DNA from: Clostridiales bacterium
Lineage (GTDB): Bacteria; Bacillota; Clostridia; Lachnospirales; Lachnospiraceae
Direction: 5' to 3'
Assembly (NCBI GenBank): GCA_021203115.1
Contig: JAJQBV010000100.1
Location: forward strand, 1 to 19,138
Length of the DNA stretch: 19,138 bases
Shown: in pieces, positions 2,004 through 18,476 of the stretch
Position numbering within the stretch: the first letter of the stretch is position 1
Layout: each line of letters opens with the position of its first letter
Made by a program: the position numbers and the translations under genes
Notes under the pieces: generated by a model
The model's input: only the letters and a program-made list of their open reading frames with translations
The model's database searches: none
What the model was told of the DNA's origin: nothing

Positions 2004-2030
2004 ATTGTCAGTTATTTTGTGATTTTCTTG

Positions 2031-2804
2031 TCAGAAGCACAGCCACCCGCCATTGACCGGAAGAATCTGCCCGTTTACGTAGCTTGCCTCATCGCTTATG
2101 AGGAACAGGGCTGCTTCTGCTACCTCGGAAGCATTCCCCAGGCGTGTCATTGCGGGCGTATACAGTCCGGTTCTGGAAGAGCCGAACTCATCCGCTGCCG
2201 GCATATTGAAAAAGATGTCTGTGATTACACCGCCCGGTGCGATGGCATTGACGCGAATCCCATCCGCCTGATACATGAAGGCGGAGTGTTTCGTGATGGC
2301 TTCTACTGCCGCCTTGGCGGAGCAGTATACCACACCGGCACATGTGTGCTGTGCTCCGATGGAAGTGATATTGAGAATATTTCCCCTGTCTTTCTCTTCA
2401 TCACTTTCCTGTGTCAGAAACTGCTTTACGGCAGCCCGCATGCTGTACAATACGCCAAATGTATTGAGATTATAGATTTTTTCCAGATATTCGTCTTTAA
2501 AATCGCCTACCGCTGTTGTGTCGTCCATGATTCCGGCATTATTTACCAGGCTGTCCAGATGACCATATTTTTCGACAGCGGTTGCAATCTTTTTTTCGCA
2601 TACATCTTTTTGGGAGCAATCTCCAACGAATGCTTCAATGCTGCCTGGGTAATTGGCTGCTTCCTGACAGAGTTAAAGCAGAATGTCTTCTCTTCTGGCA
2701 ACCGCCAGAACCTTTGCACCTTCCCTGGCAAAAGTCAAAGCCATTTCCCGTCCCATACCGGCGGAGGCTCCCGTTACAATAACAACCTTGTTTTCTAAAC
2801 GCAT
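2031..2804 (-). pseudogene. SDR interrupted by one in-frame TAA
   Basis: Read from the ATG at 2804 (AGGGAGGA upstream), the product is a normal 257-position classical SDR: VTGASAGMG near residue 11, NNAGIMDD, ITSIGAQ serine, VYCSAKAA with Tyr-x-x-x-Lys, and VNGQILPVNGGW near the end. A single TAA at 2673-2675 (codon 44, after VARREDILL) splits it. The protein resumes in the same frame at once with LCQEAANYPG and shows no other damage, so this is one base substitution, not a frameshift. The gene is 110 bases downstream of the GroEL paralogue on the same strand. As read, only a 43-residue stub would be made. The sequence is not especially close to the other SDRs here. Confidence 0.85.
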
Positions 2805-2914
2805 AAATAAATCCTCCCTGTTATTTCTTTCACAATATATAAATATTTTACTGGAAAAACCGGGCATATGGAAATACTGAAAGTTCCGTAATTTGCGTTA
2901 GGGGCCAGCTGGTG

Positions 2915-4558
2915 TTATGATGCAATGTCAGGTGTTTTTTTGTCTGTTATGGCTGCTGTACCTGCTTCGGCAGTCAATATTGTAGAAGCGGCAGAGACTG
3001 CGCGTTGCAACGCTGTTTTGCTTACTTTCAGAGGGTCAATGATACCTGCCGCATACATATCCGTGTATTGTCCGTCCGCAACATTATAGCCGATGACAGG
3101 GGCACATTTTTTTAAAGATCCCAGCATCTCCCCGTCATCCAGGCCGGCGTTGCGAAGTATCTGTCTGGCGGGCATCTCAAGGGCGCGCATCAGTACCTGT
3201 ATGCCGGTTTTTACATCCCCCTCCCGGCGTTCGGCCAGTTTCTGTAAGGCGGGAAGAACGCCGAGATAAGCGCTTCCTCCTCCGGGTACGATGCCGGATT
3301 CCAGAGCGGCTCTCGCTGCGACGACGGCATCCTCCGCGCGGAAACGGAGTTCCCTGATCTCGGCTTCCGTAGTACCGCCGATGTCTATTTTTGCGACGCC
3401 GGAAACAAATTTTGCAAGGCGCTCCTGATATCGTTCGCGGTTAAAGTCATACTCTGTGTGATTCACAAGATAGCGCAGCTCCCGGACTCGGTTTTCCACC
3501 GCAGCAGGGTCTCCGCCCGCCCCGGTGATTACGGTCTGATGTTTGGTTACTTTCACATACTCCGCTGTTCCGAGCATTTCCAGAGTCGCTTTCCGTATAT
3601 CGATTCCAAAGTCCTTCGAAATATAAGAAGCACCTGTCTGTACAGCCATATCTTCCATCCGCCACTGACGGCCTTCTCCATAGAGAGGCGCGGATACGCA
3701 GACAATCTCCATATCGCCTTCTAATTTATTTTTCATGATCAGCCCCATTGCGTCGCCTTCCAGCCCGTTGCAGATGATCAGGCACCCCCTGCCGGTCTCT
3801 GCAATCTGGATTAATATGGGAATCAGATCCTGGGGATTTTCAAATTTGGTATCGGTAATCAGAATGTAGGGGTTGTGAAACTCCGCCATCGTCTGCGTTT
3901 CATCGGTGGCCATGAGCGGAGAAAAAAATCCTTTGTCAAATACAATCCCTTCCAGAATTTCCATGGTGGTTGTCGGCCTCCCGGAATCATCAATCTGAAT
4001 GACGCCTTCAAGCCCTATCGTCTGAAGGGCTTTTCCGATCATTTGGCCAACCTTCTCGTCCTGGCATGAGACGGTCGCAACCATGGATATATCATTTTCC
4101 GAGGAAACAGGCTTTGCCATGTGTTCCAACTCTGAGACGGCCAGATCGCAGGCGGCGTGCAGTCCTTTTCTGAGTAAGAGCGGGTGCGCTCCGGCTGCAA
4201 GATGCCGGTAACCTTCCTGGAGAATGGTCTGGACAAGGAGGACGGTAGTACTGGTTCCGTCGCCGGCTGCGTCGTTTGTCTTTTCCGCAGCGCCCCGCAT
4301 CAGTTCGACACCCATGTTTTCCACAGGATCCGGCAGCAGGATGGATTTCAGGATGGTTACGCCATCGTTGATAACCATCGTTGGCGTATCTTTGCGGGGA
4401 GCGTCGGAGTATTTTGCATCGTGCAGATTGGCTTTCTGATACATCAGCACGTTTCGCCCGACAGGCCCCATGGTTGCCTTGACAGCCTCCGCTGCCTTGG
4501 CGCATCCATCTATCATTTTTTTCTTGATTTCCATGGAATAAAAAAGATTTTTTGCCAT
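2915..4558 (-). CDS. Diverged GroEL-type (group I) chaperonin paralogue
   Basis: 547 residues, near the usual 540-548 of GroEL. The start at 4558 (MAKNLFYS) is preferred over an ATG 12 bases upstream, because GGAGGG overlaps that upstream codon. ATPase residues are kept: the GPVGRN loop, NDGVTI, DGTSTTVLL, and EDAVVAARAAL carrying the Asp that activates water, then IVPGGGSAYL. It is clearly not the housekeeping copy: there is an insertion of roughly 14 residues after GRNVL (MYQKANLHDAKYSDAPRK), the apical substrate-binding segment reads FDKGFFSPLM instead of the usual GYLSPYF, the C-terminal GGM repeat tail is missing (ends KKTPDIAS), and no groES is adjacent. It follows a trigger-factor arm gene by 37 bases. 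It is probably a dedicated chaperone for cluster enzymes (inference). Confidence 0.9.
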   Translation of the reverse strand: MAKNLFYSMEIKKKMIDGCAKAAEAVKATMGPVGRNVLMYQKANLHDAKYSDAPRKDTPTMVINDGVTILKSILLPDPVENMGVELMRGAAEKTNDAAGDGTSTTVLLVQTILQEGYRHLAAGAHPLLLRKGLHAACDLAVSELEHMAKPVSSENDISMVATVSCQDEKVGQMIGKALQTIGLEGVIQIDDSGRPTTTMEILEGIVFDKGFFSPLMATDETQTMAEFHNPYILITDTKFENPQDLIPILIQIAETGRGCLIICNGLEGDAMGLIMKNKLEGDMEIVCVSAPLYGEGRQWRMEDMAVQTGASYISKDFGIDIRKATLEMLGTAEYVKVTKHQTVITGAGGDPAAVENRVRELRYLVNHTEYDFNRERYQERLAKFVSGVAKIDIGGTTEAEIRELRFRAEDAVVAARAALESGIVPGGGSAYLGVLPALQKLAERREGDVKTGIQVLMRALEMPARQILRNAGLDDGEMLGSLKKCAPVIGYNVADGQYTDMYAAGIIDPLKVSKTALQRAVSAASTILTAEAGTAAITDKKTPDIAS

Positions 4559-4595
4559 GATTCCCTCCATTCTTTCTTCCTGCCGGATTACTGGC

Positions 4596-5024
4596 TTACG
4601 ATTCCGCCCGGTTGATTGCCCAGTCGATGGCTTTTTACTTTAAGAGGTCTGTTTTCAGCATGGACAGGTCATCGCCGAAAAACGTACGGATCATATCAGG
4701 GGATGCATCCAACCGCTTCGCCATGTCAGCTGCAGCGGTCTCCAATTCTTCCTGCGTTACAGAGAAGTCCTGCTCTTTCTGAATAGACTTGATTACCAGA
4801 TCGGACTTGGCTTCAAAAACAGCCTGCTCATGGATATCCAGATTTTGCAGCTCTAGAAGAGTATCTGAATCAGCGGCCGATTATTCGCCTGCCATAACCT
4901 GATATTTTATTCTGTGCCGAATATCCAAGGAGATAAAATTTTCCTCGTTTTCAATCAGTTCATCCGGGACATCAATGTCGTACTGTTTTACGTATTTCCT
5001 CCAGAGATCTTCTCTTGTATCCAT
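4596..5024 (-). pseudogene. Stand-alone trigger factor C-terminal (arm) domain with two in-frame TAA codons
   Basis: From the ATG at 5024 (GGGAGG six bases upstream) one frame of 143 codons runs to TAA at 4596. It matches the C-terminal chaperone arm of trigger factor: VKQYDIDVPDELIENE (compare VKANDIDVPAALIDSE in E. coli), EQAVFEAKSDLVIKSI, FSVTQEELETAAADMA, and a last helix KAIDWAINRA. The ribosome-binding and prolyl-isomerase domains are absent, so this would be a mini-chaperone of about 142 residues. Two TAA codons interrupt it, at 4881-4883 (codon 48) and 4635-4637 (codon 130), both with homology continuing in frame. It lies just upstream of the GroEL paralogue and is probably co-transcribed with it from the promoter at 5097-5125. 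Confidence 0.8.
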
Positions 5025-5096
5025 GCTGAGCCTCCCGCGTTTTGTGATATGATTTGTTCCCTGCCCCTCATAAGCGGTCATTTTCAAATTGTAAAA

Positions 5097-5125
5097 AGTA
5101 TAACAAAATGAAACAGAATTGTAAA
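5097..5125 (-). promoter_or_regulatory. Probable sigma-A promoter for the chaperone genes
   Basis: On the minus strand TTTACA (-35, 5120-5125) and TATACT (-10, 5097-5102) are separated by exactly 17 bases, about 73 bases before the start codon of the trigger-factor arm gene. No CIRCE heat-shock inverted repeat was seen nearby, so this chaperone pair is probably not under HrcA control. Confidence 0.65.
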
Positions 5126-5144
5126 TTGAAATGCCACATACTTA

Positions 5145-5176
5145 TTTTAAGATACTTAATATTTAGTATTTTAAAA
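5145..5176. repeat. AT-rich inverted repeat between SDR and chaperone genes
   Basis: Arms TTTTAAGATACT (5145-5156) and AGTATTTTAAAA (5165-5176) pair over 12 bases with one G-T mismatch and an 8-base centre. It lies 20 bases after the stop of the SDR at 5196 and about 20 bases upstream of the chaperone -35 box. It could be a weak terminator or a regulator site at the chaperone promoter; I cannot tell which. Confidence 0.5.
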
Positions 5177-5195
5177 GCAGCTCAGGTGCTCTCCA

Positions 5196-6014
5196 TTATT
5201 GCATCGCTTTCATCGCCGCAATGGTGCCTCCATCGTATAAAATATCCACGCCGGTCAGATAACTGGCATCGTCGCTGACGATAAATGCCATTATCTTTGC
5301 TATCTCCGCCGGATCGCCTACTCGCCCGAGGGCGCCCATCAGTGCATATTTGGCAGCGCCTTCTCCCTCCGCTTTGCCCAATGGGGTGTCGAATGTTCCG
5401 GGGGAGATTGAGACGACGCGAATTCCTTTTTTGCCAGCCTGCAGGGATATTTTTTCCGTATACCATTTTGCAAAATTTTTGGAAAGGGAATAAGCGAAAC
5501 CGGCAGCCTGCTCTGCGGGCAATTGCTCCAGCGTCTGCTTTGCGCCACTCATAAAAGCGGAGACGTCTGTCAGCGATAATTGATATAGTGCGGTAGGCAC
5601 GTGTGCGTCCGGGAGCATGTAGGCGGACATGGACGTAACATTCAGGATACAGCCGCCTTGTTCCATAATTGACAGAAACGCTTCATCCATAATGATGGTA
5701 CCGAGTGCATTGATTCTGAAAATACTAATTGCGTCCGTCATGTGAGGAGAGACCCCCGCCGCGTGGATTACAGTCTTTACCTGCCCGAGAGAGGCGGCGT
5801 AATTCGCAAGGTTTTTGACGGAGTCCCGATCACTGATATCTGCCGGATATGCTTCTGCGCTTAGGCCGCAGTCCCGCAGCTGCTCCAGGGCGTCGTCCAA
5901 TTTGGAAACGGTGCGTCCGACCAGGATGATGTGACTATCCTTTGCCATCAGTTTTGCGGTTTCCAGTCCCATGCCGCTCCCACCGCCGGTAATTACGATA
6001 ATATTCTTTTTCAT
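5196..6014 (-). CDS. SDR of the 3-alpha-hydroxysteroid dehydrogenase/carbonyl reductase shape
   Basis: 272 residues, intact. Motifs: ITGGGSGMG at the N-terminus, HAAG where NNAG is usual, NVTSMSA serine, and GFAYSLSKNFAKW with Tyr-x-x-x-Lys. Between Ser and Tyr there is an insertion of about 40 residues, as in Comamonas 3-alpha-HSDH, and the C-terminus (GRVGDPAEIAKIMAFIVSDD, then YDGGTIAAMKAMQ) also follows that protein's plan. The substrate could be a steroid-like or other bulky alcohol/ketone (inference from shape only). The start at 6014 (MKKNIIVITG) is chosen with AAAGGA upstream at a long spacing; an in-frame ATG at 6047 is possible but lacks a spaced ribosome site. A terminator at 6145-6176 separates it from the PanB-like gene, so it may be transcribed on its own. 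Confidence 0.85.
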   Translation of the reverse strand: MKKNIIVITGGGSGMGLETAKLMAKDSHIILVGRTVSKLDDALEQLRDCGLSAEAYPADISDRDSVKNLANYAASLGQVKTVIHAAGVSPHMTDAISIFRINALGTIIMDEAFLSIMEQGGCILNVTSMSAYMLPDAHVPTALYQLSLTDVSAFMSGAKQTLEQLPAEQAAGFAYSLSKNFAKWYTEKISLQAGKKGIRVVSISPGTFDTPLGKAEGEGAAKYALMGALGRVGDPAEIAKIMAFIVSDDASYLTGVDILYDGGTIAAMKAMQ

Positions 6015-6144
6015 ATCTGCCGATGTTCCTTTCTTTGTGGTATTCATCCTGTTTATAGTACTTCATGCGATATAGCTGTTTGTGTAAAGTGGGTCTTCTC
6101 TGGAAAGTTTGGTTCCGTGAGAAACCGTACTCTTTGTGTGATAT

Positions 6145-6176
6145 AGAAAAAGCGGAGCTGCTGCGCACAGCCCCGC
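6145..6176 (-). terminator. Rho-independent terminator after the second PanB-like gene
   Basis: On the minus strand GCGGGGCTG pairs with CAGCTCCGC (6168-6176 with 6152-6160, one G-U pair), with a 7-base loop and a following T run (TTTTTC). It lies 19 bases downstream of the PanB-like stop codon. Confidence 0.85.
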
Positions 6177-6194
6177 CCTTCTGCAGATAAATGA

Positions 6195-7085
6195 TCAGAA
6201 TTTTGCCAGTGCGTCCGTGAATTTCTCGAGTTCTGCCGCATCCATGTGATAGCCGTGTTTGTCTTCCGGATATGCCCCGGTGCGCACGTCGTTCGCCCAC
6301 GCAGAGTATGCGCCTACGGCGAATTTGAAGAAATCGCCGTAGGATTTCGCATGGGAAACCGGTGACGGCATCATGTTAAATGTGTCGAAGTCAACCATCT
6401 CACAGCCGTCCGCAGCTCCGCCGGCCGCAATGGAGATAACCGGTACACGAAGCTTCTTTGCGATTGCGTTGGTCACTTCAATCGGAGTCAGTTCGACCGT
6501 CATCGCTTTCATGCCATTCTCCTGATATTCATAAGCCATCTTAAATACGCGCATTGCGTCGTCCGCGGTTTTGCCCAGGCGTTTATAGCCGCCGGCGCCG
6601 TCTGTCTGCCAGCCGGAGAGGGCTCCCACATGTCCGAACACCACCAGATAGTTATCCGACATAAATTTCAGGGTTTCGTTGTTAATGCCCATAGGGAGGA
6701 GGGAGTTGGCGCCTTCTGCCATGTAGATGGAACCGTATTCCAACGCTTTTTCTTTGGACACATAGGTGGGTGTCTGCATAAAGAAGTTAATGTGGATGTA
6801 TTGCGCTGCTCCGCGGATTTCGCGCAGCCACCAGGGAGAGTGCTCAATCCTCATTTCAATATTTTCTCCCGGAACGGTGAGACGCAAAATGTCGCAGTCT
6901 GCCATATCCGCAGCCATTGCAAAGTATTTGTCTCTGTCTGCCGGGCACATCTGAACCAGTTTCTTGCCCTCATCCTTGCATTTCTGCAGATACTGAATGG
7001 ACTTGCGGCCTTTTTTCATCAAGGAGGATTTTACCTTTTTGTCTTCTGCATTTACTTCCACGTTGTTTGTTTTTTCTTCCGCCAT
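6195..7085 (-). CDS. PanB-like protein (ketopantoate hydroxymethyltransferase superfamily), complete
   Basis: 296 residues; start at 7085 (MAEEKTNN) with AAAGGAG six bases upstream. A lysine-rich leader of about 40 residues precedes the barrel. Superfamily landmarks: CDILRL near 64, HINFF near 98-102, YMAEGANS near 121-128, GHVGALSG at 151-158, GYKRLGKTADDA near 167, VELTPIEV with Glu199, VPVISIAAGGAADG near 214-227. True PanB binds Mg with Asp residues in V-G-D-S and D-x-P-F; these motifs are replaced here (VPGEN, HINFF), while Glu124 and Glu199 match catalytic acids. Function may be a THF-linked hydroxymethyl transfer or aldol cleavage on another 2-oxo compound (inference). It is close to the protein encoded at 1-777 along the whole length. 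It is 67 bases after the MFS gene in one operon. Confidence 0.8.
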   Translation of the reverse strand: MAEEKTNNVEVNAEDKKVKSSLMKKGRKSIQYLQKCKDEGKKLVQMCPADRDKYFAMAADMADCDILRLTVPGENIEMRIEHSPWWLREIRGAAQYIHINFFMQTPTYVSKEKALEYGSIYMAEGANSLLPMGINNETLKFMSDNYLVVFGHVGALSGWQTDGAGGYKRLGKTADDAMRVFKMAYEYQENGMKAMTVELTPIEVTNAIAKKLRVPVISIAAGGAADGCEMVDFDTFNMMPSPVSHAKSYGDFFKFAVGAYSAWANDVRTGAYPEDKHGYHMDAAELEKFTDALAKF

Positions 7086-7152
7086 AATTGACTCCTTTCT
7101 TTGATTTAAAAATATATTATTTACCCGCGATGCGGTGAAATACATATGCCGT

Positions 7153-8607
7153 TTATGCTCCCGCCTGTTCAGCGGCAGCGATTTCTTCCTTACTGAACCG
7201 GAAACCGATAATCGCGCAGATCAGACCGATCGTGGCGAACACAAAGCCGGTAGCGAATGCTCTGGTATAATCGTTGGAGGATCCCAATACTACGCCGACC
7301 ACGGAACCGAAAATAACGGAACCGCCCGTCGCTCCGAAGTTATAGAGCGCCGCTCCGGAGGGGACGTCCTCACGGGGTGTGTTGCTCTGCCAGAACGCAG
7401 AGAAAGTAGACTGCGCAACTACGGAGGTAAATCCGCCGATTGCTGTGGCGATGTAGATCACAATCATACCCAGCGGTATGGAGGGACCGATCACCACCAG
7501 ATCTCCGCCCGCAGCCGTTCCGGTGAATTTCAGGCAGTACAGGATGCCGGTTGCTGCCATGGCTGCAACCATGGAGAGAATGCCGAATACCCGGAAGCGT
7601 TTGACAAATTTTTTCCCGATATAGGCGCCCAGGAAGAATCCCAGGATCAGGATTACGATTTGTTGTGCCGTAGTCGCGGTTCCGTTGAACAGCGTGGTGG
7701 CGGGAAACTCTGAAAAGTTCATCCGTATCCACATCACACAGTAGGAACCGGAACAGGTAGAGTAGGCCGCAGCGACCAGAGAACCGATAAAGGCGAAGGT
7801 CAGCCGCTTGTTGCGGAACATTTTAATCGGAACCGCAGGGTTGCTGATAGAAAGCTCCCGGCGGATCATCCAGGCGATGCAGATGATTGTCACCGCCAGC
7901 AGCACCAGAGAGATGGCGCTGGCCCAGGCAAACATTTTGCCTCCCAGGTTCATCCAGAGAACCATGCAGGTCAGACCGACGACGGTCAGGATCAGACCGA
8001 GGAAATCAAACCCTTTCGATGCTCCCGGTGTTTTCGTGTTCGGGCAGTGGGGCAGTACCATCAAAAAGCCGATGATTGTCAGCGGTAAGTTGGCGATATA
8101 GGCCAATTTTCCCACAATCCCGCCTGCAGAGTACATTGCACTGATGAGAATCGGTCCGCAGATGGCGCCGATTGCGTTGGCTACCGCAATGTATCCGAAA
8201 AATTTGGCTCGTTCATGCGCCTGCACTGCCATCGGCATCAGTACATACGCGCAGGAAATATAAAATCCTCCGCCGATCGACTGCAGGAGATAGGCCAGAC
8301 CGTAAGGAACCCATGTCGCGGTGAACATCATCAGAATTCTTCCGACCAGCTGGATGATAATGCCGATTACGATCATGTTCCGCTGTCCGAGGATAGCGGT
8401 CAGCTTGCCGACGATCGGCAGGATCAGCAGCATTCCCAGCGTGCCGAATGCCGAGATCAGAACATAATATTGCATGGCGTCCATTTTTGTGACTTCGGCT
8501 GACAGGCAGACTGCGGTTCCGTAATTTGCGAATTGCATTCCTACGCAGAGAACCAGTACGCCGATGATAAAGACCCAGTTTTTCTTATTTGCCTCATCTT
8601 TTCCCAT
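7153..8607 (-). CDS. MFS permease, DHA2-like, about 14 membrane segments
   Basis: 484 residues, mostly hydrophobic. The first segment (WVFIIGVLVLCVGMQFANYG) begins after a 12-residue charged leader, with the usual MFS loop motif GKLTAILGQRNM after the second segment, and HERAKFFGYIAVANAIGAICGP in the fifth-segment region (GP motif). Length and spacing fit 14-segment drug:H+ antiporter-2 type proteins rather than 12-segment sugar porters. Start at 8607 has GGAGGAG upstream. It lies between an SDR (54 bases upstream) and the second PanB-like gene in the same direction, so it probably imports the cluster's substrate or exports its product. Such proteins in gut catabolic operons are often uptake systems for bulky aglycones or steroids; that role is inferred from context only. 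Confidence 0.88.
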   Translation of the reverse strand: MGKDEANKKNWVFIIGVLVLCVGMQFANYGTAVCLSAEVTKMDAMQYYVLISAFGTLGMLLILPIVGKLTAILGQRNMIVIGIIIQLVGRILMMFTATWVPYGLAYLLQSIGGGFYISCAYVLMPMAVQAHERAKFFGYIAVANAIGAICGPILISAMYSAGGIVGKLAYIANLPLTIIGFLMVLPHCPNTKTPGASKGFDFLGLILTVVGLTCMVLWMNLGGKMFAWASAISLVLLAVTIICIAWMIRRELSISNPAVPIKMFRNKRLTFAFIGSLVAAAYSTCSGSYCVMWIRMNFSEFPATTLFNGTATTAQQIVILILGFFLGAYIGKKFVKRFRVFGILSMVAAMAATGILYCLKFTGTAAGGDLVVIGPSIPLGMIVIYIATAIGGFTSVVAQSTFSAFWQSNTPREDVPSGAALYNFGATGGSVIFGSVVGVVLGSSNDYTRAFATGFVFATIGLICAIIGFRFSKEEIAAAEQAGA

Positions 8608-8661
8608 TACATTTTCTCCTCCTTCTTCCCATTTTTGTTGTCTCTTTATTGCCGGAATGAA

Positions 8662-9456
8662 TTATCCAAGGCAGACGCCGCCGTCGATCACGATACTTGC
8701 GCTGGTCACAAAGCTGGATTCATCGCTTCCCAGATAGACAGCCAACGGCGCAATCTGATCCGGCATAGCGTATCTCTGGATTGTCCATTCGGAATAGTGG
8801 GCATTGTACCCGGTCCCGTGGTGGACTGCTGTTCCCTTCGAGTCGCGGTCTCCGGCAGACTCCGTGATGTTCGTGACAATCGGTCCGGGGAGAATCGCGT
8901 TGCAGCGGATGCCCTGTCTGGCGTATTCATAGGAGATGCTCTTCATTAGGGCATTGGCTCCCGCCTTGGATGCCGTGTATGCTACACCGCCGGTGGAGCT
9001 CTCAATTGCTGCATTGGATGTGATCATTACGATTACGCCCTTGATTTCATTCTTCAGGAAATATTGTATTGCTGCGCGTGTCATATACATCGAGCCTGTG
9101 AGGTTCACATTGATCTGGCGCTGCCAGATATCGTCTGTCATGTCCTCCAGCATGGTCCAGTTATCCGTGATGCCCGCGTTATGGGAAAGCAGATTGCAGC
9201 TGCCAAACGCGTTCGCGCATGCAGCCACGGCTTTTTCACAATCTTCCGCGTTTGTTACATCACATCTCATGGTCTGAAGGCAATCTGATAATCCGATTGC
9301 CTCGACTTCCTGCTGCAGTTCCCCCAAACGCTCCGTATTCAGATCGCAGGCCAATACCTTTGCGTTCTCTTTCAGGTATGCCAGTGCGATCGCTTTCCCC
9401 ATGCCGGAAGCTGCTCCTGTTACCACAGCAATCTTTCCATCCATACGATTTGCCAT
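8662..9456 (-). CDS. Short-chain dehydrogenase/reductase, first gene of the PanB/MFS operon
   Basis: 264 residues, intact, start at 9456 with GGAGGAGG upstream. Motifs: VTGAASGMG near residue 13, CDLNTE after strand two (acidic, suggesting NAD), HNAGITD, MITSNAA serine, VAYTASKAG with Tyr-x-x-x-Lys, and IVIDGGVCLG at the end. It is the close paralogue of the SDR at 1131-1946, and both carry the GYNA segment about 60 residues from the C-terminus. It leads an operon SDR, MFS, PanB-like. A promoter (9543-9573) and a large inverted repeat (9487-9540) lie immediately upstream, so this operon is probably the regulated target of the LuxR-type protein next door. Confidence 0.92.
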   Translation of the reverse strand: MANRMDGKIAVVTGAASGMGKAIALAYLKENAKVLACDLNTERLGELQQEVEAIGLSDCLQTMRCDVTNAEDCEKAVAACANAFGSCNLLSHNAGITDNWTMLEDMTDDIWQRQINVNLTGSMYMTRAAIQYFLKNEIKGVIVMITSNAAIESSTGGVAYTASKAGANALMKSISYEYARQGIRCNAILPGPIVTNITESAGDRDSKGTAVHHGTGYNAHYSEWTIQRYAMPDQIAPLAVYLGSDESSFVTSASIVIDGGVCLG

Positions 9457-9486
9457 TACATTCCTCCTCCTTTTATGAAAAAATAT

Positions 9487-9540
9487 TTTTATACAAAAAG
9501 CCCAAAATAAAATTTGAAATTAAATACTTTTTGTATAAAA
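9487..9540. repeat. Perfect 14-base inverted repeat in the leader of the SDR/MFS/PanB operon
   Basis: TTTTATACAAAAAG (9487-9500) and CTTTTTGTATAAAA (9527-9540) are exact reverse complements, 26 bases apart. Each arm is itself nearly palindromic around its centre. The outer arm begins two bases downstream of the -10 box, so the repeat covers the probable transcription start and leader. It may be a paired operator for a regulator or an RNA stem-loop. Confidence 0.7.
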
Positions 9541-9542
9541 TT

Positions 9543-9573
9543 ATTATATGAGAATCGGGGTAAATACAGTCAA
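9543..9573 (-). promoter_or_regulatory. Probable promoter of the SDR/MFS/PanB operon
   Basis: Minus-strand TTGACT (-35, 9568-9573) and TATAAT (-10, 9543-9548). The boxes are near-perfect but the spacer is 19 bases, longer than the ideal 17, which fits a promoter that needs an activator. The leader to the ATG at 9456 is about 80 bases. Confidence 0.6.
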
Positions 9574-9620
9574 AATGAAGTATATTTTTGAGAAAACAGA
9601 CATGTTGCGAAAAATCAGAC

Positions 9621-9654
9621 AAAATAAGCTGCGGCTTTCAAAGCTGCAGCTTTT
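9621..9654. terminator. Terminator after the LuxR-type gene
   Basis: AAGCTGCGGCTTT (9626-9638) and AAAGCTGCAGCTT (9640-9652) pair over up to 13 bases with one mismatch, flanked by AAAAT on one side and TTTTAT on the other. It sits directly after the regulator stop codon (9656) and before the operon promoter at 9543-9573, so it insulates the two units. Confidence 0.7.
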
Positions 9655-9655
9655 A

Positions 9656-10417
9656 TCAGATGCGGGGATTTAAAATTTTTACCAGGAGTTCCTGCATGCC
9701 GGATACAGACAGCTTTTTGTATATATGGGACAGATGTTTGCGTATGGTTGTGGGAGAGATGACTAATCGCTTGCTGATTTCATCCGGCGATACCCCCTGA
9801 CAGAGCAGTCGTACGATCTTTCGTTCCTGCTGGGTCAGCCCGGCCACATCCAGAAGCATATCCCATTTGGCTGATTGTGTACCGGAGAGCGCTTTGTAAT
9901 AAAACATGCGGTGAAAATTGTTCAGATGCGGTAGAATAATGTCCAGAATCTCCCGTTCCTTTTCTCCGTAGGGTATGTTGCGGGTTCGGTCAAAAGCAAA
10001 GGTTACTCTTGCAATTTCATCATCATCCACAAGTGTAATATAAAAAGAATACTTTAGCTTGCGTGCCGGCAGTATGTAGTCGCGGGTAAATTCGCTGGCC
10101 TCAACCTTAGACCAATCCGTAAAAAAGAGAACGGAAGCAGTGGGTTTACCACCGTCTTTGGTTGTCTGCTTTTCTCGGCGCGCGACATCCAGGTGCTTGT
10201 AGTATTCGATATAAGCGCTGCTCCATTCTTTCCTGTAATTATAGAATTTTTGCAGGATTTGATTCCCTTGTGCGTCCATTACATAAGCCAGACCGTTGTC
10301 AAAGGGACAGAGCGAGTTCATATTATACAGTACAGCTTCCGTGAATTCTTCGACGCTGTGGCTGCTTTCACATTTTAGTAAGAAATGATGGATCTTTTTC
10401 TACTGCCGTTCTTCCAT
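9656..10417 (-). pseudogene. LuxR-type transcription regulator with an in-frame TAG at codon 6
   Basis: The C-terminal 60 residues are a GerE/LuxR helix-turn-helix: LTQQERKIVRLLCQGVSPDE, then ISKRLVISPTTIRKHLSHIY and KKLSVSGMQELLVKIL. The N-terminal 190 residues look like a GAF/PAS-type sensor; there is no receiver domain or membrane segment. The apparent ATG at 10321 has no good ribosome site. The same frame continues upstream as sensible protein (CESSHSVEEFTEAVLYN) to an ATG at 10417 with GGAGAGAGG before it, broken only by TAG at 10400-10402. With that codon restored the protein is 253 residues. Initiation at 10321 could still yield a shortened 221-residue product. It probably controls the adjacent SDR/MFS/PanB operon (inference from position). 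Confidence 0.8.
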
Positions 10418-10464
10418 ATAAAAATACCTCTCTCCCCACATTTAATATAGCACGATAAAGAAGA

Positions 10465-10509: not shown

Positions 10510-10601
10510 ATAATTTGTGCGCTTGTGCCAGAAATAATTCTGCGGGTAAGATATGAAATAAGGATACTGCATAATAATTCTGAAAATTTTAAAGGCTAAT
10601 T

Positions 10602-10720
10602 GTTGAAAATCACAGTGGAATTGATAAGGCTGAGGGTGGATTACATCCCGCTAAAAGATAGACAGGAAGTTCATTCCGGCAGCAGTTGTCAACTCGGCCA
10701 CGGCAGGTGGGGAAAAGAAT
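10602..10720 (+). pseudogene. Decayed fragment of a formate-THF ligase N-terminus
   Basis: Translated in shifting frames, the stretch reads VENHSGIDKAE, then VDYIPLKDRQE, then N-S-ATAGGEK, which parallels [21 protein letters not shown] and N-P-TPAGEGK in the intact-looking fhs just downstream. At the DNA level GTGGATTAC is identical and the following AAAGAtAGaCAGGA is near-identical, and the P-loop region aligns (CCacGGCaGGtG GGGAAAaG). The spacing between the two blocks is 62 bases here against 76 in fhs, so there has been a deletion plus at least one frameshift. It is therefore a relic of a second fhs 5' end, from a partial duplication or replacement. Confidence 0.5.
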
Positions 10721-10735
10721 ACTGAATTTTGTGAA

Positions 10736-10764
10736 TTGTAAAAACGGAAGCGTATTTTTATGAT
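10736..10764 (+). promoter_or_regulatory. Candidate promoter for fhs and the folate operon
   Basis: TTGTAA (10736-10741) and TATGAT (10759-10764) with a 17-base spacer, giving a start near 10771 and a short leader before the ribosome site AAGGAGGAG at 10781-10789. The -35 box is imperfect. Confidence 0.45.
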
Positions 10765-10795
10765 ATCTACATCGGAAGAAAAGGAGGAGTTTACT

Positions 10796-12472
10796 ATGGA
10801 AATCAAGACAGATATCGAGATCGCACAGTCCTGTGAGATGAAAAAGATCACGGAAATCGCTGCAGTGGCGGGGGTAGAAGAAAAGTACCTGGAGCAGTAC
10901 GGCAATTACAAGGCCAAGGTGGATTACGCTCTGCTGAAAGACAGGCAGGAGAAACCGGACGGGAAGCTGATCCTGGTGACGGCCATCAATCCGACCCCGG
11001 CGGGCGAGGGAAAGACGACCACCACCGTGGGACTGGCCGATGGCCTGAGAAAGATCGGGAAGAATGCGGTGATGGCGCTGCGGGAGCCTTCCCTCGGACC
11101 GGTCTTCGGCGTGAAGGGAGGCGCAGCCGGAGGCGGTTACGCACAGGTAGTTCCGATGGAAGACATCAACCTGCATTTTACGGGTGATTTTCACGCGATC
11201 GGCGCCGCGAACAACCTGCTGGCGGCGATGCTGGACAACCATATTCAGCAGGGGAACGCGCTGGGGATCGACCCGAGAAAGATTACATGGAGGCGTGCGG
11301 TGGATATGAATGACCGCCAGCTGCGCAACATCGTAGACGGCCTGGGCGGCAAGCCGAACGGGACTCCCCGTGAGGATGGCTTCGATATCACGGTCGCCTC
11401 TGAGGTGATGGCAGTACTCTGCCTGGCCAGTGATATTAAAGATCTGAAAGAACGGCTGGCGCGGATCATTGTCGCCTATACCTATGACGATAAGCCGGTC
11501 ACCGCGGGCGAACTGAAGGCGCAGGGAGCCATGGCGGCTCTCTTAAAAGACGCCCTGAAGCCGAATCTGGTGCAGAGTCTGGAGAGGACGCCGGCCTTTA
11601 TCCACGGCGGTCCGTTTGCAAATATCGCGCATGGCTGCAACTCTGTGACAGCCACAAGGATGGCGATGAAGCTGGGCGGTTACGCCGTGACAGAAGCGGG
11701 CTTCGGCGCTGACCTGGGAGCGGAAAAGTTCCTGGACATCAAGTGCCGTATGGCGGGGCTGAGACCGTCCGCGGTTGTCATAGTAGCGACCGTGCGCGCG
11801 CTGAAGCACCACGGCGGCGTGGCGAAAGCAGATTTAAACGAAGAAAATCTGGAGGCGCTGGCGGCCGGTCTGCCGAATCTGCTGCGCCATGTGGAGAATG
11901 TGACGCAGGTATACAGGCTGCCGTGCGTGGTGGCGATCAATGCATTTCCCACGGATACGGCCGCAGAGTTAAAACTTGTGGAGGATAAGTGCAGGGAGCT
12001 TAGCGTCAATGTTGCGCTTTCTGAAGTGTGGGCAAAGGGCGGCGAGAGCGGAAAAGCCCTAGCCTAGCACTTAGTACGCCTCTGCGAACAGCCGAATGAG
12101 TTCCGATTTGCCTATGAGGCGGATGCCGGTATCATGGAGAAGCTGAACGCCATCGCGACGAAGATTTACCATGCGGACGGGGTGACGCTGGTGGGTAACG
12201 CGGTGAAACAGTTAAAGCAGCTGGAGAGTCTGGGATTCGGGAAACTGCCGATCTGTATGGCCAAGACACAGTACAGCTTTTCTGACGATGCGAAAAAGCT
12301 CGGGGCGCCGGAAGGATTTACCATCGCGGTCCGTAATCTGAAGGTGTCTGCCGGTGCCGGATTTATCGTGGCATTGACCGGTGATATCATGACGATGCCG
12401 GGATTACCGAAAGTTCCTGCGGCTGAGCGGATTGATGTGGATGAGGATGGAGTGATTTCGGGACTGTTTTGA
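10796..12472 (+). pseudogene. fhs: Formate-tetrahydrofolate ligase (fhs) with one in-frame TAG
   Basis: The product joins formate to THF with ATP to give 10-formyl-THF, and can run in reverse to yield ATP. Start at 10796 with AAGGAGGAG upstream; full frame 559 codons, the normal size. Motifs: [17 protein letters not shown] (P-loop, residues about 61-77), [46 protein letters not shown] and GGEx(S)GKALA. TAG at 12065-12067 (codon 424) interrupts [21 protein letters not shown] where the family usually has Glu (A-E-x-V-x-LCEQPN), so GAG to TAG is the simplest change. The C-terminal quarter ([21 protein letters not shown]) is intact in the same frame. As read the enzyme would lack residues 424-558, which include conserved folate-site sequence, and should be inactive. 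Confidence 0.92.
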
Positions 12473-12502
12473 GGAGAGACATGCATAAGTAACATTTTAT
12501 TG

Positions 12503-12595
12503 ACAGAGTAGGAGTTGGCGCGTTAAGTGTCGGAGAATGGGAGGTTGTCTCCGGACGAAACACGAGAGTGTGCGGTGCCGCTCCGCATCCGCTGC
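12503..12595 (+). promoter_or_regulatory. THF-I (tetrahydrofolate) riboswitch
   Basis: Conserved blocks appear in the right order: AGAGTAG, GGCGCGTTAAGTGT, GAATGGGAGGTTG, CGAAAC, CGAGAGTGTGCGGTGC, and GCATCCGCT closing the structure. These match the known folT riboswitch class. It lies between fhs and folT, so it can tune folate uptake and the downstream genes separately from fhs. Reduced folate binding would be expected to lower folT expression. Confidence 0.92.
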
Positions 12596-12624
12596 CACAT
12601 AAGGTGTGTAGTTCCTTTTGTGGC
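12594..12624 (+). promoter_or_regulatory. Hairpin directly after the riboswitch (expression platform candidate)
   Basis: GCCACATAAGG (12594-12604) and CCTTTTGTGGC (12614-12624) pair over 10 of 11 positions, with a 9-base loop. No T run follows, and the ribosome site AAAGGAG near 12636 lies outside the stem. It touches the last helix of the aptamer, so the two may compete. How it controls folT is not clear from sequence. Confidence 0.5.
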
Positions 12625-12647
12625 ATCAGACATGAAAGGAGATTACG

Positions 12648-13190
12648 ATGAAAAATACAAGACAGATGGCAATGGACGCTTTATTGGTGGCGCTGTGCGC
12701 AGTGCTGGGATATATTTCTCTGGATATGGGATTTATTAAGGTAACCTTTGAAAGCCTGCCGATTTTATTAGGAGGTCTGCTCTTCGGACCGATGGACGGA
12801 TTTATTATCGGTACGCTTGGAACATTGATTTATCAGGTTCTCCGCTATGGCGTCACGGCAACGACAGTGCTGTGGATGCTTCCCTATATGATATGTGGCG
12901 GAATTGTCGGCATTTACGCAAAATCACACAATTTTCGACTGAGAAGAAAACAGATTATGTTTTTGGTGATAGCCAATGAACTGTTGATTACCGCACTGAA
13001 TACGGGAGTCATTTTCATTGACAGCAAGATATATGGTTATTATTCGGTTGCCTATGTTTTCGGCTCACTGGCTCTGCGTTTGGTTGTGTGTGTGATAAAA
13101 GCAGTGGCGTTTGGTGTGGTTCTTCCCGGAATTGTGAAGGCGGTCCGCCATAGTTTGGGGTTGTGGAAAGGGACGGAGGAGGTTTCATGA
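12648..13190 (+). CDS. folT: FolT, folate-specific S component of an ECF transporter
   Basis: 180 residues with about five to six membrane segments and the S-component start MDALLVALCAVLGYISL. The segments FESLPILLGGLLFGPMDGFI and GTLGTLIYQVLRYG are typical of the ECF S-component (FolT-like) family. It binds folates at the membrane and works with a shared EcfA/EcfA'/EcfT module encoded elsewhere. Start at 12648 has AAAGGAG before it. The THF riboswitch upstream is the main support for folate rather than another vitamin. Its stop codon overlaps the next start by four bases (ATGA at 13187), so it is translationally coupled to folC. Confidence 0.9.
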   Translation: MKNTRQMAMDALLVALCAVLGYISLDMGFIKVTFESLPILLGGLLFGPMDGFIIGTLGTLIYQVLRYGVTATTVLWMLPYMICGGIVGIYAKSHNFRLRRKQIMFLVIANELLITALNTGVIFIDSKIYGYYSVAYVFGSLALRLVVCVIKAVAFGVVLPGIVKAVRHSLGLWKGTEEVS

Positions 13191-15004
13191 CAGCGGATGA
13201 GGCGATTCGTTATATAGAAGATTATTCGTGAAACCGAACGCGCCCCGGCCTGGAGCGGACGAGAGATTTGCTCCGGGCGTTGGGAAATCCGGAGAAACGA
13301 CTGCGGTTTATTCATGTGACCGGCAGTAATGGGAAGGGCAGCACCTGCGCGATGCTGGCTTCTGTTTTGGAACAGGCGGGTTATCGGACCGGATTATACA
13401 CATCGCCGTATCTGCAGGATTTCTGTGAGCGGATTCAGGTGAACCGAACGAATATTCCGAAGGAAAGGCTGGCGGATATTACAGGACTGGTTCGGAAGGT
13501 GGCCGACCGGATGGAAGACCATCCCAGCCAGTTCGAGCTGGTGACGGCCATCGCCATGCTGTTTTTTGCAGAAGAGAACTGTGATATCGTCGTGCTGGAG
13601 GTCGGCATGGGCGGCGCGCTGGACAGCACAAATGTTATTGATGCGCCAGAAGTAGCGGTAATCACCAATATTTGTCTGGAACATACAGAGTATCTGGGAA
13701 CCACGATCGCAGAGATTGCCCGTACAAAGGCCGGCATTGTGAAGCCCGGCTGCGACGCAGTGGTTTACAATAGCACCCCGGAAGCGGTGGAAGTGATAAG
13801 GGAGGTTTGCGCGGAAAGAAAGGTTCCGGTGCACATGGTGGATTTTTCAGCCGTAAGGCTGACCCGCCATGGCCTGACAGGGCAGGAATTTCTCTGGAAA
13901 GGACTTGCCATTCGTCTTCCTTTGTCAGACAGACTGCAGCTGCGCAATGCGGCGACTGCCCTGACGGTGATTGAGGTACTTCGGAAGCGGGGATACGCAG
14001 TCCGTGATCAGGATATCGTAAATGGGTTTGCCGGTGTTTTCTGGCCGACCCGTATGGAGGTTGTGCAGAAAGAGCCATTGTTCCTTTTGGACGGAGGACA
14101 TAATCCGCAGTGTGCGGACGCGATGACGGATTTTTTGTGTGAGTTTCTTCCGGACAGAAAAGTGGTATTTCTGATCGGATTTCTCCGTGACAAGGAAACA
14201 GAGGGAATACTGGAAAAACTGATTCCGTTTGCCGGAGAGTTTGTCTGTGTGGCGCCAGACAGTCCGCGTTCCCTCCCGGCGGAAATGCTGGCCGGGCAGA
14301 TAAAGCGGCTATGTGATGTCCCGGTTCAAACCTGCAAAAGTGTTCAAACCGGGATCGTCAGAAGCATTCATTCCGGATTCCCGGTGGTTTGTTTTGGTTC
14401 CCTGTACCTGGCCGGGGAGATCAGAAATCAACTTGTTCTGATTCGGAAGACTTTTCAGCGAAAACAATGTATGGATGCCAGAAGGAATCTTACTGAGCAG
14501 CAGCGCACGGAGTTTAGTGAGCAGATTTTTCGGAGGCTTATAGAACTTCCGGAAGTGCAGCAGGCAAACGTTATTTTTTCGTATGCAGCGACATATGACG
14601 AGGTGGATTTGACGGCCTTTCATTGCTGGGCAAAGGATGAGGGCAAGACCCTTGCATTTCCTGTTTCAGGAAAGGGCGGTGTGATGGAGGCGTATGAGCC
14701 GTGGAACGATGACAGCTGGGAGACCGGCAAATACGGGATTGTATCACCCATGCTATCTCGCTCGGACTATATTTGCCCGGAGAAGATTGATCTGATTCTG
14801 ATTCCCTGTGTGGGATGGGATGGTTATGGCGGCCGTCTGGGTCACGGAGCGGGGTACTATGATCGCTATCTATTGAAATGCGGAGGAGCTGCACAGGTTA
14901 TGGTTGCTTTTGATGTCCAAAAGCTGGAGAGGACTGCGCAGGAAGAGACGGATCAGGCGGTATCCTGTGTTGTGACAGACACCGGAGTGAAGCGGTTTCT
15001 CTGA
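13187..15004 (+). pseudogene. folC: FolC (folylpolyglutamate synthase) fused to 5-formyl-THF cyclo-ligase, with in-frame TGA at codon 15
   Basis: The ATG at 13187 follows GGAGGAGG and overlaps the folT stop, so it is the true start. The frame reads MTADEAIRYIEDYS, then TGA (13229-13231), then NRTRPGLERTRDLLRALG. FolC proteins often have Trp at this point, so TGG to TGA is likely. FolC part, residues 1 to about 415: P-loop VTGSNGKGS at 44-52, YTSPYLQDFCERIQVN, LEVGMGGALDSTN, ICLEHTEYLG, LLDGGHNP. It adds glutamates to folate to retain it in the cell. From about residue 418 follows a complete 5-formyl-THF cyclo-ligase domain: RRNLTEQQR, FSYAATYDEVD, and GGRLGHGAGYYDRYL near 548-562, which returns 5-formyl-THF to the active pool. 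No stop or start separates the two domains. A TTG at 13268 could only give a protein shortened at its N-terminus. Confidence 0.9.
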
Positions 15005-15032
15005 TTATAGGGAAACATGTAGTGAAGATATC

Positions 15033-15674
15033 ATGCGAGAAATAAATATGAAAGAGAAAAGTTGCAGAGAATTTGTGGAGCTCCTCGCCTCGAAATCTCC
15101 GGTTCCGGGCGGCGGAGGCGCCGCGGCCATGGCAGGAGCCCTGGGTACGGCTTTGGGTGAGATGGTGGGAAGCCTGACGGTTGGTAAGAAGAAATATGCG
15201 GATGTTCAGGATGATGTTCTCCGCCTGAAAAAGGAAGCGCAGAAGCTGGAAAGTGAGTTCCTGGATCTGGTAGAACGTGATGCGGAGGTGTTTGAGCCTC
15301 TTTCAAGAGCATATGGCCTCCCGAAGGATACAGAGGAGCAGAAGGCATATAAGGCAGAGGTGATGGAAGCAGCGCTGAAGGAGGCATGCACGGTTCCGGT
15401 TCGGATCATGGAGTGCTGTTGTAAGGCTATTGATCTGGTTCGCGAGATGGAAACGATCGGGACGGCTATAGCCATCAGTGATGCGGGATGTGCGGCGGCC
15501 TATCTGAGGGCTGCTCTGACCAGTGCATCGTTGAATGTGTATATTAATACAAAATCCATGAGAGATCGCAACTATGCGAGAAAGCAGGATCAATATGTGG
15601 CAAAGATGCTGGAAGAGTATGTTTCGATATGTGATGAAGTCTTTCAGAAGGTGCAGATGAGAGTAAGTGCGTGA
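15033..15674 (+). CDS. fchA: Methenyltetrahydrofolate cyclohydrolase, FchA type
   Basis: 213 residues of the cyclodeaminase/cyclohydrolase family. Motifs: KSPVPGGGGAAAMAGALGTAL near residues 20-40, MVGSLTVGKKKY, DAEVFEPLSRAYGLPK, and AISDAGCAAAYLRAALTSAS with NVYINTKSM. It interconverts 5,10-methenyl-THF and 10-formyl-THF, between Fhs and FolD. Two starts are possible, 15033 and 15048 (MKEKSCREF), neither with a strong ribosome site; the longer is given. Gap to the folC fusion is 28 bases and to folD 9 bases. Its presence fits the FolD next door, which has lost the residues needed for that step. Confidence 0.92.
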   Translation: MREINMKEKSCREFVELLASKSPVPGGGGAAAMAGALGTALGEMVGSLTVGKKKYADVQDDVLRLKKEAQKLESEFLDLVERDAEVFEPLSRAYGLPKDTEEQKAYKAEVMEAALKEACTVPVRIMECCCKAIDLVREMETIGTAIAISDAGCAAAYLRAALTSASLNVYINTKSMRDRNYARKQDQYVAKMLEEYVSICDEVFQKVQMRVSA

Positions 15675-15683
15675 GGTGATAAT

Positions 15684-16538
15684 ATGGCAAAGGTATTAAA
15701 AGGAAAGCCGGTTGCGGACAGGATTAATGAGGAAAGCATTGCACAGGTAGAGAAACTGCGGGAAAAAGGCATTCAACCGACACTGGCAATGCTGCGGGTC
15801 GGTGCGCGCGCGGACGATATCAGTTATGAGCGCGGAGCCATGAAGCGATGCGACGCTGTGGGTGTTGCAGTGAAAAATGTGGTTCTTTCGGAGAATATTT
15901 CTCAGGAAGTATTGATGGAGGAATTGGACAAATTGAATCGGGACAGTAAGGTTCACGGGATCCTGGTATTCCGTCCATTGCCGAAGCATATGGATGGAGA
16001 GGCAGTGAGGCTGGCGATGAATCCGGCGAAGGATGTGGATGGAATTACCGATGGCTCCCTGTCCGGTGTGTTTACCAATACGTCCGTGGGTTTCTGTCCC
16101 TGTACGGCGCAGGCTGCGGTTGAGATTCTGGATTATTATGGCATAGCGTGCAGTGGGAAGCGGGCCGCGGTCATCGGCAGGAGCCTGGTGGTGGGCAGAC
16201 CGGCGGCGATGTTGCTGATGCACAAAAATGCAACGGTTACCATTTGCCATACCAGAACAGAGGACATGCCGTCTGTGACAAAGGAGGCGGATATTATAAT
16301 TGTCTGTGCAGGGAAAATGGAGGCAATTGATGCGAAGTATTTCCGATCGGGACAGACGGTGATCGATGTGGGTATTGGCTTTAATGAGACAAAAGGAAAA
16401 CTATGCGGAGATGTGGATTACGATGCCGTGGAGCCAGTTGTGGACGCAATTACACCGGTGCCGGGTGGCGTGGGATCTGTGACGACTGCTGTATTAGTGA
16501 AGCATGTAGTGGAGGCCGCCGGGAGGGCAGCGCGATGA
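15684..16538 (+). CDS. folD: FolD-type methylenetetrahydrofolate dehydrogenase, probably lacking cyclohydrolase activity
   Basis: 284 residues, intact, GAGGTGATA before the ATG. It oxidises 5,10-methylene-THF to methenyl-THF with NAD(P). Motifs: ISYERGAMKR (46-55), GILVFRPLP (92-100), KDVDG (116-120), CPCTAQAAVEIL, GRSLVVGRPAAMLL (dinucleotide fold), and ITPVPGGVGSVTTAVL. In bifunctional FolD the first motif is Y-x-x-x-K with a catalytic Lys (Lys56 in human MTHFD1); here that position is Ala52 (Tyr48 kept). The VQLPL Gln (human Gln100) is Phe96. Asp119 is kept. Family studies link Lys56 to the cyclohydrolase step, so this is predicted to be a dehydrogenase only, with FchA supplying the hydrolase. 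The stop overlaps the next start by four bases. Confidence 0.93.
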   Translation: MAKVLKGKPVADRINEESIAQVEKLREKGIQPTLAMLRVGARADDISYERGAMKRCDAVGVAVKNVVLSENISQEVLMEELDKLNRDSKVHGILVFRPLPKHMDGEAVRLAMNPAKDVDGITDGSLSGVFTNTSVGFCPCTAQAAVEILDYYGIACSGKRAAVIGRSLVVGRPAAMLLMHKNATVTICHTRTEDMPSVTKEADIIIVCAGKMEAIDAKYFRSGQTVIDVGIGFNETKGKLCGDVDYDAVEPVVDAITPVPGGVGSVTTAVLVKHVVEAAGRAAR

Positions 16539-17152
16539 AAACTGCGAAGACATTTGTATCCGGCATCATGGGCGGCGCCTGCATTAGTTTCGGCGGCATT
16601 GCTTATCTGCCTCTGGAAGAGAAAGTACTGGGCGCCCTGTTTTTTACGGTGGGATTATTTACAATCTGTACGTTCGGGCTGAATCTTTTTACAGGAAAGG
16701 TATGTTATGTGTTTGAACAGGACAGATTTTACGCACTGCAGATTCCGGTCATCTGGTTGGGAAATCTGACCGGGACGTGGCTGGTTGCTCAGATGGTGAA
16801 GCTCAGCCGTTTGAGCACACTGGCAGAAAAAGCAGATAGCATATGTCAGGTAAAACTGGAGGATGGATATCTGAGCCTCTTTCTTCTCGGAATTCTGTGT
16901 AATATTTTTATTTACATAGCAGTAGAAGGATTTAAAAACAACTTGCATGAGTTGGGAAAATATCTTTCCCTTTTTTTTGGCGTGATGGTGTTTATTCTCT
17001 GCGGATTTGAGCATTGTGTGGCAGATATGTTTTATTTTTCTGTGGCGGGGGTGTGGAGCGGACAGGCTGTCTTACGTTTGCTGGTAATCAGTGCGGGAAA
17101 TGCAGTGGGAGCTGTGATTTTTCCGTTGGTGCGCAAGTGGCTTCAGGCATAG
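16535..17152 (+). CDS. Short formate/nitrite transporter (FNT) family channel
   Basis: 205 residues, shorter than the usual 250-285 because it begins almost at the first membrane segment (TFVSGIMGGACISFGGIAYL). FNT landmarks: GLNLFTGK at 48-55, NLTGTW, LLGILCNIFIYIAV at 117-130, and GFEHCVADMFYF at 157-168, which contains the pore histidine (His160). About six membrane segments. It is translationally coupled to folD (ATGA overlap) and ends the operon before the terminator at 17219-17270. Given its place beside Fhs, FchA and FolD, formate is the likely ion, imported for C1 synthesis or exported as an end product; other small anions (nitrite, hydrosulfide) are less likely from context. Confidence 0.88.
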   Translation: MKTAKTFVSGIMGGACISFGGIAYLPLEEKVLGALFFTVGLFTICTFGLNLFTGKVCYVFEQDRFYALQIPVIWLGNLTGTWLVAQMVKLSRLSTLAEKADSICQVKLEDGYLSLFLLGILCNIFIYIAVEGFKNNLHELGKYLSLFFGVMVFILCGFEHCVADMFYFSVAGVWSGQAVLRLLVISAGNAVGAVIFPLVRKWLQA

Positions 17153-17218
17153 GTAGTGAATCAGGCTTTTAAGCAGTAATCATAAAAAGAATAAAACGGC
17201 CGTAGTTTTATATTACAT

Positions 17219-17270
17219 AGCGCATTTGGTGAATTCCATAGATGGATAGCCAGATGCGCTTTTGTTATTT
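17219..17270 (+). terminator. Rho-independent terminator of the folate operon
   Basis: AGCGCATTTGG (17219-17229) pairs with CCAGATGCGCT (17250-17260) with one G-U pair, 20-base loop, followed by TTTGTTATTT. A smaller hairpin, TAAAAC-N7-GTTTTA, lies just before it at 17192-17210. Confidence 0.85.
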
Positions 17271-17282
17271 CATAATGAAATT

Positions 17283-17354
17283 ATCGTCCATCTGCTTGCC
17301 ATTTCGTCCAAAACGAGGTACAATTTGGACGAAAGGAACATGCGGCTGGACGAA
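17283..17354 (+). promoter_or_regulatory. Fic promoter covered by four ordered operator half-sites
   Basis: TTGCCA (17296-17301) and TACAAT (17319-17324), 17 bases apart, form a likely promoter 60 bases before the Fic ATG. Half-sites (T/A)TCGTCCA occur at 17283-17290 (ATCGTCCA) and 17303-17310, and their reverse complement TGGACGAA at 17326-17333 and 17347-17354. The inner pair forms a perfect 10-base inverted repeat. The outer pair is symmetric about the same centre (near 17318), with 20-21 bases between neighbouring sites, about two helical turns. One site lies between -35 and -10 and another just after -10, so binding should repress. Confidence 0.75.
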
Positions 17355-17383
17355 AAGAAAAAATAACTCAGCTCAGGTGATAT

Positions 17384-18476
17384 ATGAGAAATTTTGATTA
17401 TTCTAAACTTGCGCAAATAACATGGGATATGGAAATAATTAATTATCTGTCAAAAATATACGAATGCAAAGGCTGGCAAAATTTATTTATTCGGCAAAAA
17501 CCGGTTGAGTTAACCCGCATGGTGGAAATCGCGAAGATTCAGAGCACTGAGGCATCGAATAAGATAGAAGGAATTGTGACGACCAACACGAGGATGCGGC
17601 AGCTGGTGGAAGAGAAAACAACACCCAGGAAATCGTGATGAAAGCGAAATTATGGGATACAGAGATGTTCTGAACACAATCCACGAAAGCCATGATTTCA
17701 TCCCGGTGAGGCCAACTTATATATTACAGCTATACAGGGATCTGATGAAACGCGCAGGATTATCCTACGGAGGGCATTTTAAGAATGTACAGAATTACAT
17801 TAATGAAACACGGCCGGACGGAACACAGGTGACACGTTTTACACCAGTTGCTCCTTATGAAACAGAGGCTGCAGTCGAGGCAATCTGCGATAACTATAAA
17901 AGGACGCTGGCGATGGAAACCGTTGATCCTCTTATTCTGATCTCTGCATTTATTTGTGATTTTCTGTGCATTCATCCTTTTAATGATGGAAATGGAAGAA
18001 TGAGCCGGTTACTGACGCTCCTTCTGCTCTATCAGAATGGCTACGAGGTTGGAAAATATGTCAGCATCGAAAAAAAGATTGAAAATACAAAGGACATTTA
18101 CTATGACGCACTCGAGAGAGCAGATTACGGCTGGCATGAAGAGAAAAATGACCCAACTCCGTTCATCCGCTATATGCTGAAGGTTATCCTGGCTTGTTAC
18201 ATAGAATTTGAAGAGCGGGTTGGGATTGTTGAAAAAACCGGAGTCAGAAGTTCGGCCTATGATGTGGTCAAGGCATATATTTCCGGAAAGGTTGGAAAGT
18301 TTACGAGTGCGGAAGTAATCGCCTCCTGTCCAAGTATCGGGCGTTCAGCAGCTTTGTCAGCCATAAAACGTCTTGTAGAGGAAAAAGAGATAATAAAAAT
18401 GGGTACAGGAAGATCTACCTGCTATGTCAGGATGGATGCCGCTAATAATGATTCTCTAATTTATTTCAATGAATGA
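17384..18476 (+). pseudogene. Fic family protein with N-terminal inhibitory motif and C-terminal winged helix, frameshifted
   Basis: Fic proteins usually transfer AMP to target hydroxyls. The N-terminal part has the inhibitory helix motif S-N-K-I-E-G (S-x-x-x-E-G), then NTRMRQLVEE. The reading frame breaks at a run of three A at 17630-17632. Removing one A turns PRKS-stop into PRNRDESEIMGYRDVLNTIH, the expected family sequence, and joins the two open frames. The downstream part holds HPFNDGNGRMSRL, a complete catalytic loop with His and the GNGR anion site, and ends in a winged-helix DNA-binding segment (FTSAEVIASCPSIGRSAALS, then AIKRLVEEKEII). That domain may bind the dyad array upstream to control itself (inference). 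As read only 84 residues would be made from the first start. A start at 17652 could give the Fic core without its inhibitory helix. Confidence 0.88.

Follow-up and report, generated by a model that had tools for sequence, protein, structure and literature searches.

A contig from a metagenome-assembled genome raises the question of why six neighbouring genes, all of them still recognisable, should be interrupted: the genes may be decaying, the stop codons may be read as amino acids, or letters of the assembly may be wrong. The window, by which we mean the whole stretch analysed (contig C167, 19,138 nucleotides), belongs to a draft genome, G000, of 1,690,974 bases in 242 contigs that is 79.75% complete. 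Its best-named protein relatives are draft genomes of Clostridiales and Lachnospiraceae, and the folC neighbourhood has many DNA relatives among draft genomes from rumen or gut. G001 and G002 served as sister genomes, and same-genus controls for the scans described below were taken from G001 (196 kb), G010 (70 kb) and G014 (139 kb). Very close relatives, at 98% protein identity, are available for leuS (P0003 and P0004) and fhs (P0128), and for the remaining stop-bearing genes the relatives are more distant (68-89% DNA identity or 85% protein identity). The interrupted genes of the window are as follows.

2031..2867, minus strand: short-chain dehydrogenase (SDR) frame, TAA at 2673-2675
4596..5087, minus strand: trigger factor C-terminal-arm-like gene, TAA at 4881-4883 and 4635-4637
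9656..10417, minus strand: LuxR-type regulator, TAG at 10400-10402, near the N terminus
10760..12472, plus strand: fhs, formate-tetrahydrofolate ligase, TAG at 12065-12067, adjoining further odd residues
13187..15004, plus strand: folC fused to 5-formyl-THF cyclo-ligase, TGA at 13229-13231, near the N terminus
17384..18476, plus strand: Fic-family gene in two frames, putative one-base insertion near 17630

A sequence-only reading of the window had proposed seven lesions. Its six in-frame stops were all recovered at the positions and in the frames that it gave, and for every one of the six sites one relative or more carries a sense codon. Comparison with the sister genomes gave sense codons at the SDR and fhs sites in both G001 and G002, and at both trigger-factor-arm sites in G002, where the corresponding frames are open (262 codons for the SDR, 149 codons for the trigger-factor arm). 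In Pfam searches the SDR pieces match adh_short_C2/adh_short (2031-2528) and adh_short 1-35 (2676-2867). The trigger-factor-arm piece at 4638-4880 corresponds to Trigger_C 86-152, the piece at 4884-5087 had zero Pfam matches, and the homologue in G001 (152 aa) carries a Trigger_C match. The LuxR piece at 9656-10321 matches GerE, and position 10400 is Trp in P0002, the sole relative found (253 aa, 85% identity, without a stop). The fhs pieces on either side of the stop match FTHFS 1-420 and 423-556, and all 12 loci aligned at 12065 have a sense codon. For the folC fusion, Mur_ligase_M, Mur_ligase_C and 5-FTHF_cyc-lig are matched by the piece at 13268-15004; among 13 loci tried, the five that align across the stop all have Trp there, and residues downstream of the stop, compared by eye, also differ from these five relatives. 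The seventh lesion, a frameshift in fic, is plausible from the sequence: the second piece matches Fic (PF02661), and the first (84 aa) matched no family when the pieces were searched separately against Pfam.

In-frame stops across the genome

Counting in-frame stops beyond the window, as the sequence-only reading had also suggested, yielded seven more in a sample that comprises the window and 40 further contigs (293 kb, 18% of the genome).

L125:11619: leuS, TAG; sense codon in both sisters
L125:12444: lgt; sense codon in both sisters
L137:5482: dapF; sense codon in both sisters
L109:370: pyruvate carboxylase gene; sense codon in both sisters
L100:306: aspartate aminotransferase gene; sense codon in both sisters
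L116:1703: acyl-CoA dehydratase activase-like gene; sense codon in both sisters
L099:780: unnamed gene; without a sister alignment and unsupported, still included in the total of 13

For dapF, lgt, pyruvate carboxylase and aspartate aminotransferase, the pieces flanking the stop are consecutive parts of one family. No full-length leuS other than the one with the TAG was found in this roughly 80% complete genome, so that the lesions are not confined to dispensable genes, and a sense codon occupies the site in 18 of 18 further genomes aligned there. Of two leuS comparisons, one gives a TAG in the match of G010 that is absent from the other, and the latter shows one stop each in G028 and G030.

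Two scans compared this genome with its relatives. The looser one, which collects in-frame stops flanked on both sides by coding signal, gave 27 candidates in 293 kb here and 4, 3 and 1 in G001, G010 and G014. The gene-model scan, whose settings were tuned on simulated stops because the first settings detected little, has a recall of 47 of 94 and gave 17 candidates here against 3, 1 and 1 in the same controls (5 in 405 kb). Many candidates are natural gene boundaries. By eye, six of the 17 gene-model hits resemble broken genes, compared with one of the five control hits (binomial tail 0.024); when two hits from the looser scan are added, the comparison becomes eight against one (binomial tail 0.005). 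This sorting was done by eye and not blind: the other hits of the 27 and 17 were taken as gene boundaries or wrong-strand frames and not individually checked, and among the control hits L143:9182 was counted and L139:658 excluded. The gene-model scan detects only one of the six window stops (12065), and by that yardstick the window is in line with its own genome. The stops exceed chance when compared with related genomes but are a feature common to the rest of this genome.

A count of stops in the frames of partner genomes gave nine for G000 against G001 and nine against G002, compared with two and three for the sisters, on contigs mostly picked because stops were present in them. The mutual comparison of the sisters gave five in G001 and four in G002. 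Of the stops listed, we set aside window position 2414 (a frameshift of G001 itself), position 3245 (a frame on the wrong strand) and, in L226, a crowded group of five G001 stops that was taken as a frame mismatch. Open reading frame length statistics did not separate this genome from its relatives. Family searches found no stop in rpoB of this genome and none in the three G000 matches listed for ABC_tran. A further candidate, L137:2580, was dropped as a private stop since G001 has the same one; it has coding signal on both sides.

Close relatives and residues around the stops

Both leuS (P0003, P0004) and fhs (P0128) are intact in relatives at 98% identity. Counting the stop (residue 436), 14 residues separate the window fhs from P0128; 12 of these lie in residues 276-442, six in 430-442 and none past 442. 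The earlier statement that nothing else is damaged around the stops therefore fails for fhs. Between leuS and P0003 there are 15 differences, with four in residues 728-741, the last of which is the stop. When eight stops are pooled, 17 of 128 residues within eight codons of a stop are private to this genome, compared with 290 of 4705 at greater distances within those genes (p = 0.003). Further odd residues near the stop are clear for fhs and leuS, and pyruvate carboxylase, lgt, the aminotransferase and dapF have no clear cluster of private residues at the stop. At the DNA level, the private changes in fhs residues 425-445 fall mostly on third positions (4, 0 and 7 at codon positions 1, 2 and 3).

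A wider load of altered residues was not evident. Private changes at near-invariant sites number 4 in rpoB, 1 in rpoC and 0 in leuS, compared with 0-10, 0-5 and 0-1 in other genomes of the genus, which gives no clear missense excess in these three genes. True divergence dominates the codon-position counts made against the two sisters. Frameshift calls, at 5.5 per 100 kb, are likewise no higher than usual (3.1, 7.1 and 5.0 in the comparison genomes). Relative to both sisters there are 17 insertions whose length is not a multiple of three, coding and noncoding DNA taken together. A one-base insertion relative to both sisters is also seen at L116:1162, inside the open frame that ends at stop 1703, and may be an alignment effect.

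Four of the 45 fhs copies compared, the window's included and seven shorter matches left out, carry an in-frame stop, so that stops of this kind are no rarity among draft genomes. The fhs of sister G002 (L015:157-1857) is interrupted close to the N terminus by a stop. Each sister has at least two related fhs copies (C47 and C184 in G001, C301 and C58 in G002), and in G000 we found one close copy and one distant copy (L137:8845).

Origin of the stops

In our view the in-frame stops are, with good probability, wrong bases that entered the consensus of this draft metagenome assembly as substitutions. We observe directly the stops themselves, the sense codons of relatives, the spread over the genome up to and including leuS, a random-like spectrum of stop types and the odd residues near some of the stops. 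The 13 sites (six in the window and seven outside) comprise seven TAG, five TAA and one TGA. If codons of this genome were substituted at random, 54-59% TAG, 23-28% TAA and 18% TGA would be expected, and the stop types match this expectation. The stops strike genes regardless of importance, including leuS, dapF, lgt, pyruvate carboxylase and the aminotransferase. Errors of this kind probably arose where coverage was thin and the letters came from one or a few poor reads, coverage and read quality being what we presume here. Most wrong bases would then alter a residue or nothing, a small share would yield a stop, and other wrong bases would sometimes fall close to one. Several observations count against this reading: rpoB, rpoC and leuS give no clear missense excess, frameshift calls lie in the usual range, four of the stops come without a cluster of private residues, the private DNA changes around the fhs stop still fall mainly on third positions, and the scan hits were sorted by eye.

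The sequence-only reading had left the choice between base errors and a very recent, broad inactivation of genes. Our data favour the former and disfavour the latter, and we regard it as improbable that these are real nonsense mutations in a lineage that is losing genes. Some of the genes may indeed be dispensable, as the absence of the folC part of the fusion from the sisters and the split SDR of G001 suggest; the genome has a second, distant fhs, and several stops stand alone, without other odd residues. However, leuS and dapF are essential genes, and gene decay usually brings frameshifts, for which the calls in this genome are not raised. Because leuS (in its only full-length copy found) and dapF are struck, together with lgt and pyruvate carboxylase, and because leuS and fhs are intact in the 98% relatives, real decay is the less likely reading.

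Interrupted genes have been traced to faulty sequence before. In Mycobacterium smegmatis, 28 of 73 re-sequenced interrupted coding sequences were sequencing errors (PMC1852416), and the IDEEL approach, applied to rumen genomes, gauges assembly error from truncated proteins (PMC6785717). The M. smegmatis cases resemble ours in that stops or frameshifts lie in genes intact in relatives (PMC1852416), and IDEEL likewise reads premature stops and short proteins as consensus error (PMC6785717). They differ in that M. smegmatis was an isolate that could be re-sequenced (PMC1852416), whereas here there are only the consensus letters of a draft metagenome assembly, and in that IDEEL deals with indels of long reads (PMC6785717), whereas we see substitutions. 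Like bacterial pseudogenes, the genes described here have nonsense codons within a still recognisable sequence; unlike in pseudogenes, leuS and dapF are among those struck, and some stops adjoin other odd residues. The broken genes of the window are most likely not a real biological feature. Where stops cluster in a draft metagenome genome, essential genes and very close relatives should be checked before decay or recoding is inferred.

We consider it very unlikely that the stops are real but tolerated, through a nonsense suppressor or frequent readthrough. A single ochre suppressor tRNA can read both TAA and TAG, to which 12 of the 13 stops belong, and the stops come without a clear accompanying missense excess. 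It has been argued that bacteria tolerate in-frame stops on a wide scale (PMC7918605). However, random substitution would also yield mostly TAA and TAG, and terminator usage is normal (TGA 40%, TAA 39%, TAG 22%), similar to that of four relatives, in which TAG makes up 15-19%. Moreover, the residues that relatives carry at the stop sites are mixed, including Glu, Tyr, Trp, Gln and Leu, and none of the 11 tRNA genes found, a clearly incomplete set, has a suppressor anticodon. Slightly less probable still is the full version of this idea, in which efficient suppression makes random TAA and TAG nonsense tolerable genome-wide, even in leuS and dapF, so that stops accumulate near-neutrally while both codons still terminate genes. 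Stops that were both real and tolerated would mean a gut-type bacterium that suppresses nonsense codons throughout its genome, and this would be a notable exception.

Reassignment of one stop codon to one amino acid, with which seven TAG sites in a single genome would agree, is ruled out for practical purposes, as the earlier reading had held, since TAA, TAG and TGA are each found within genes as well as terminating them at a normal rate, and since the replaced residues are mixed.

Gene neighbourhood and repeats

The first part of the window (1-10417) forms a cluster with two ketopantoate hydroxymethyltransferase-like genes, four SDRs, an MFS transporter and the LuxR regulator. The same cluster contains a Cpn60/TCP1-family chaperonin gene (2915-4570) and the small gene that consists only of a trigger-factor C-terminal arm. 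This pairing recurs in G001 and G002 and looks unusual within a metabolic cluster. The folC/cyclo-ligase fusion is matched across nearly its whole length by many relatives, and at this locus G001 and G002 have the cyclo-ligase part only. The SDR of G001 that is split into two frames lies at L013:14414-15188. Outside the window, a dispersed repeat some 200 bases long lies at L137:4879-5103, and both sisters contain many partial copies of it.
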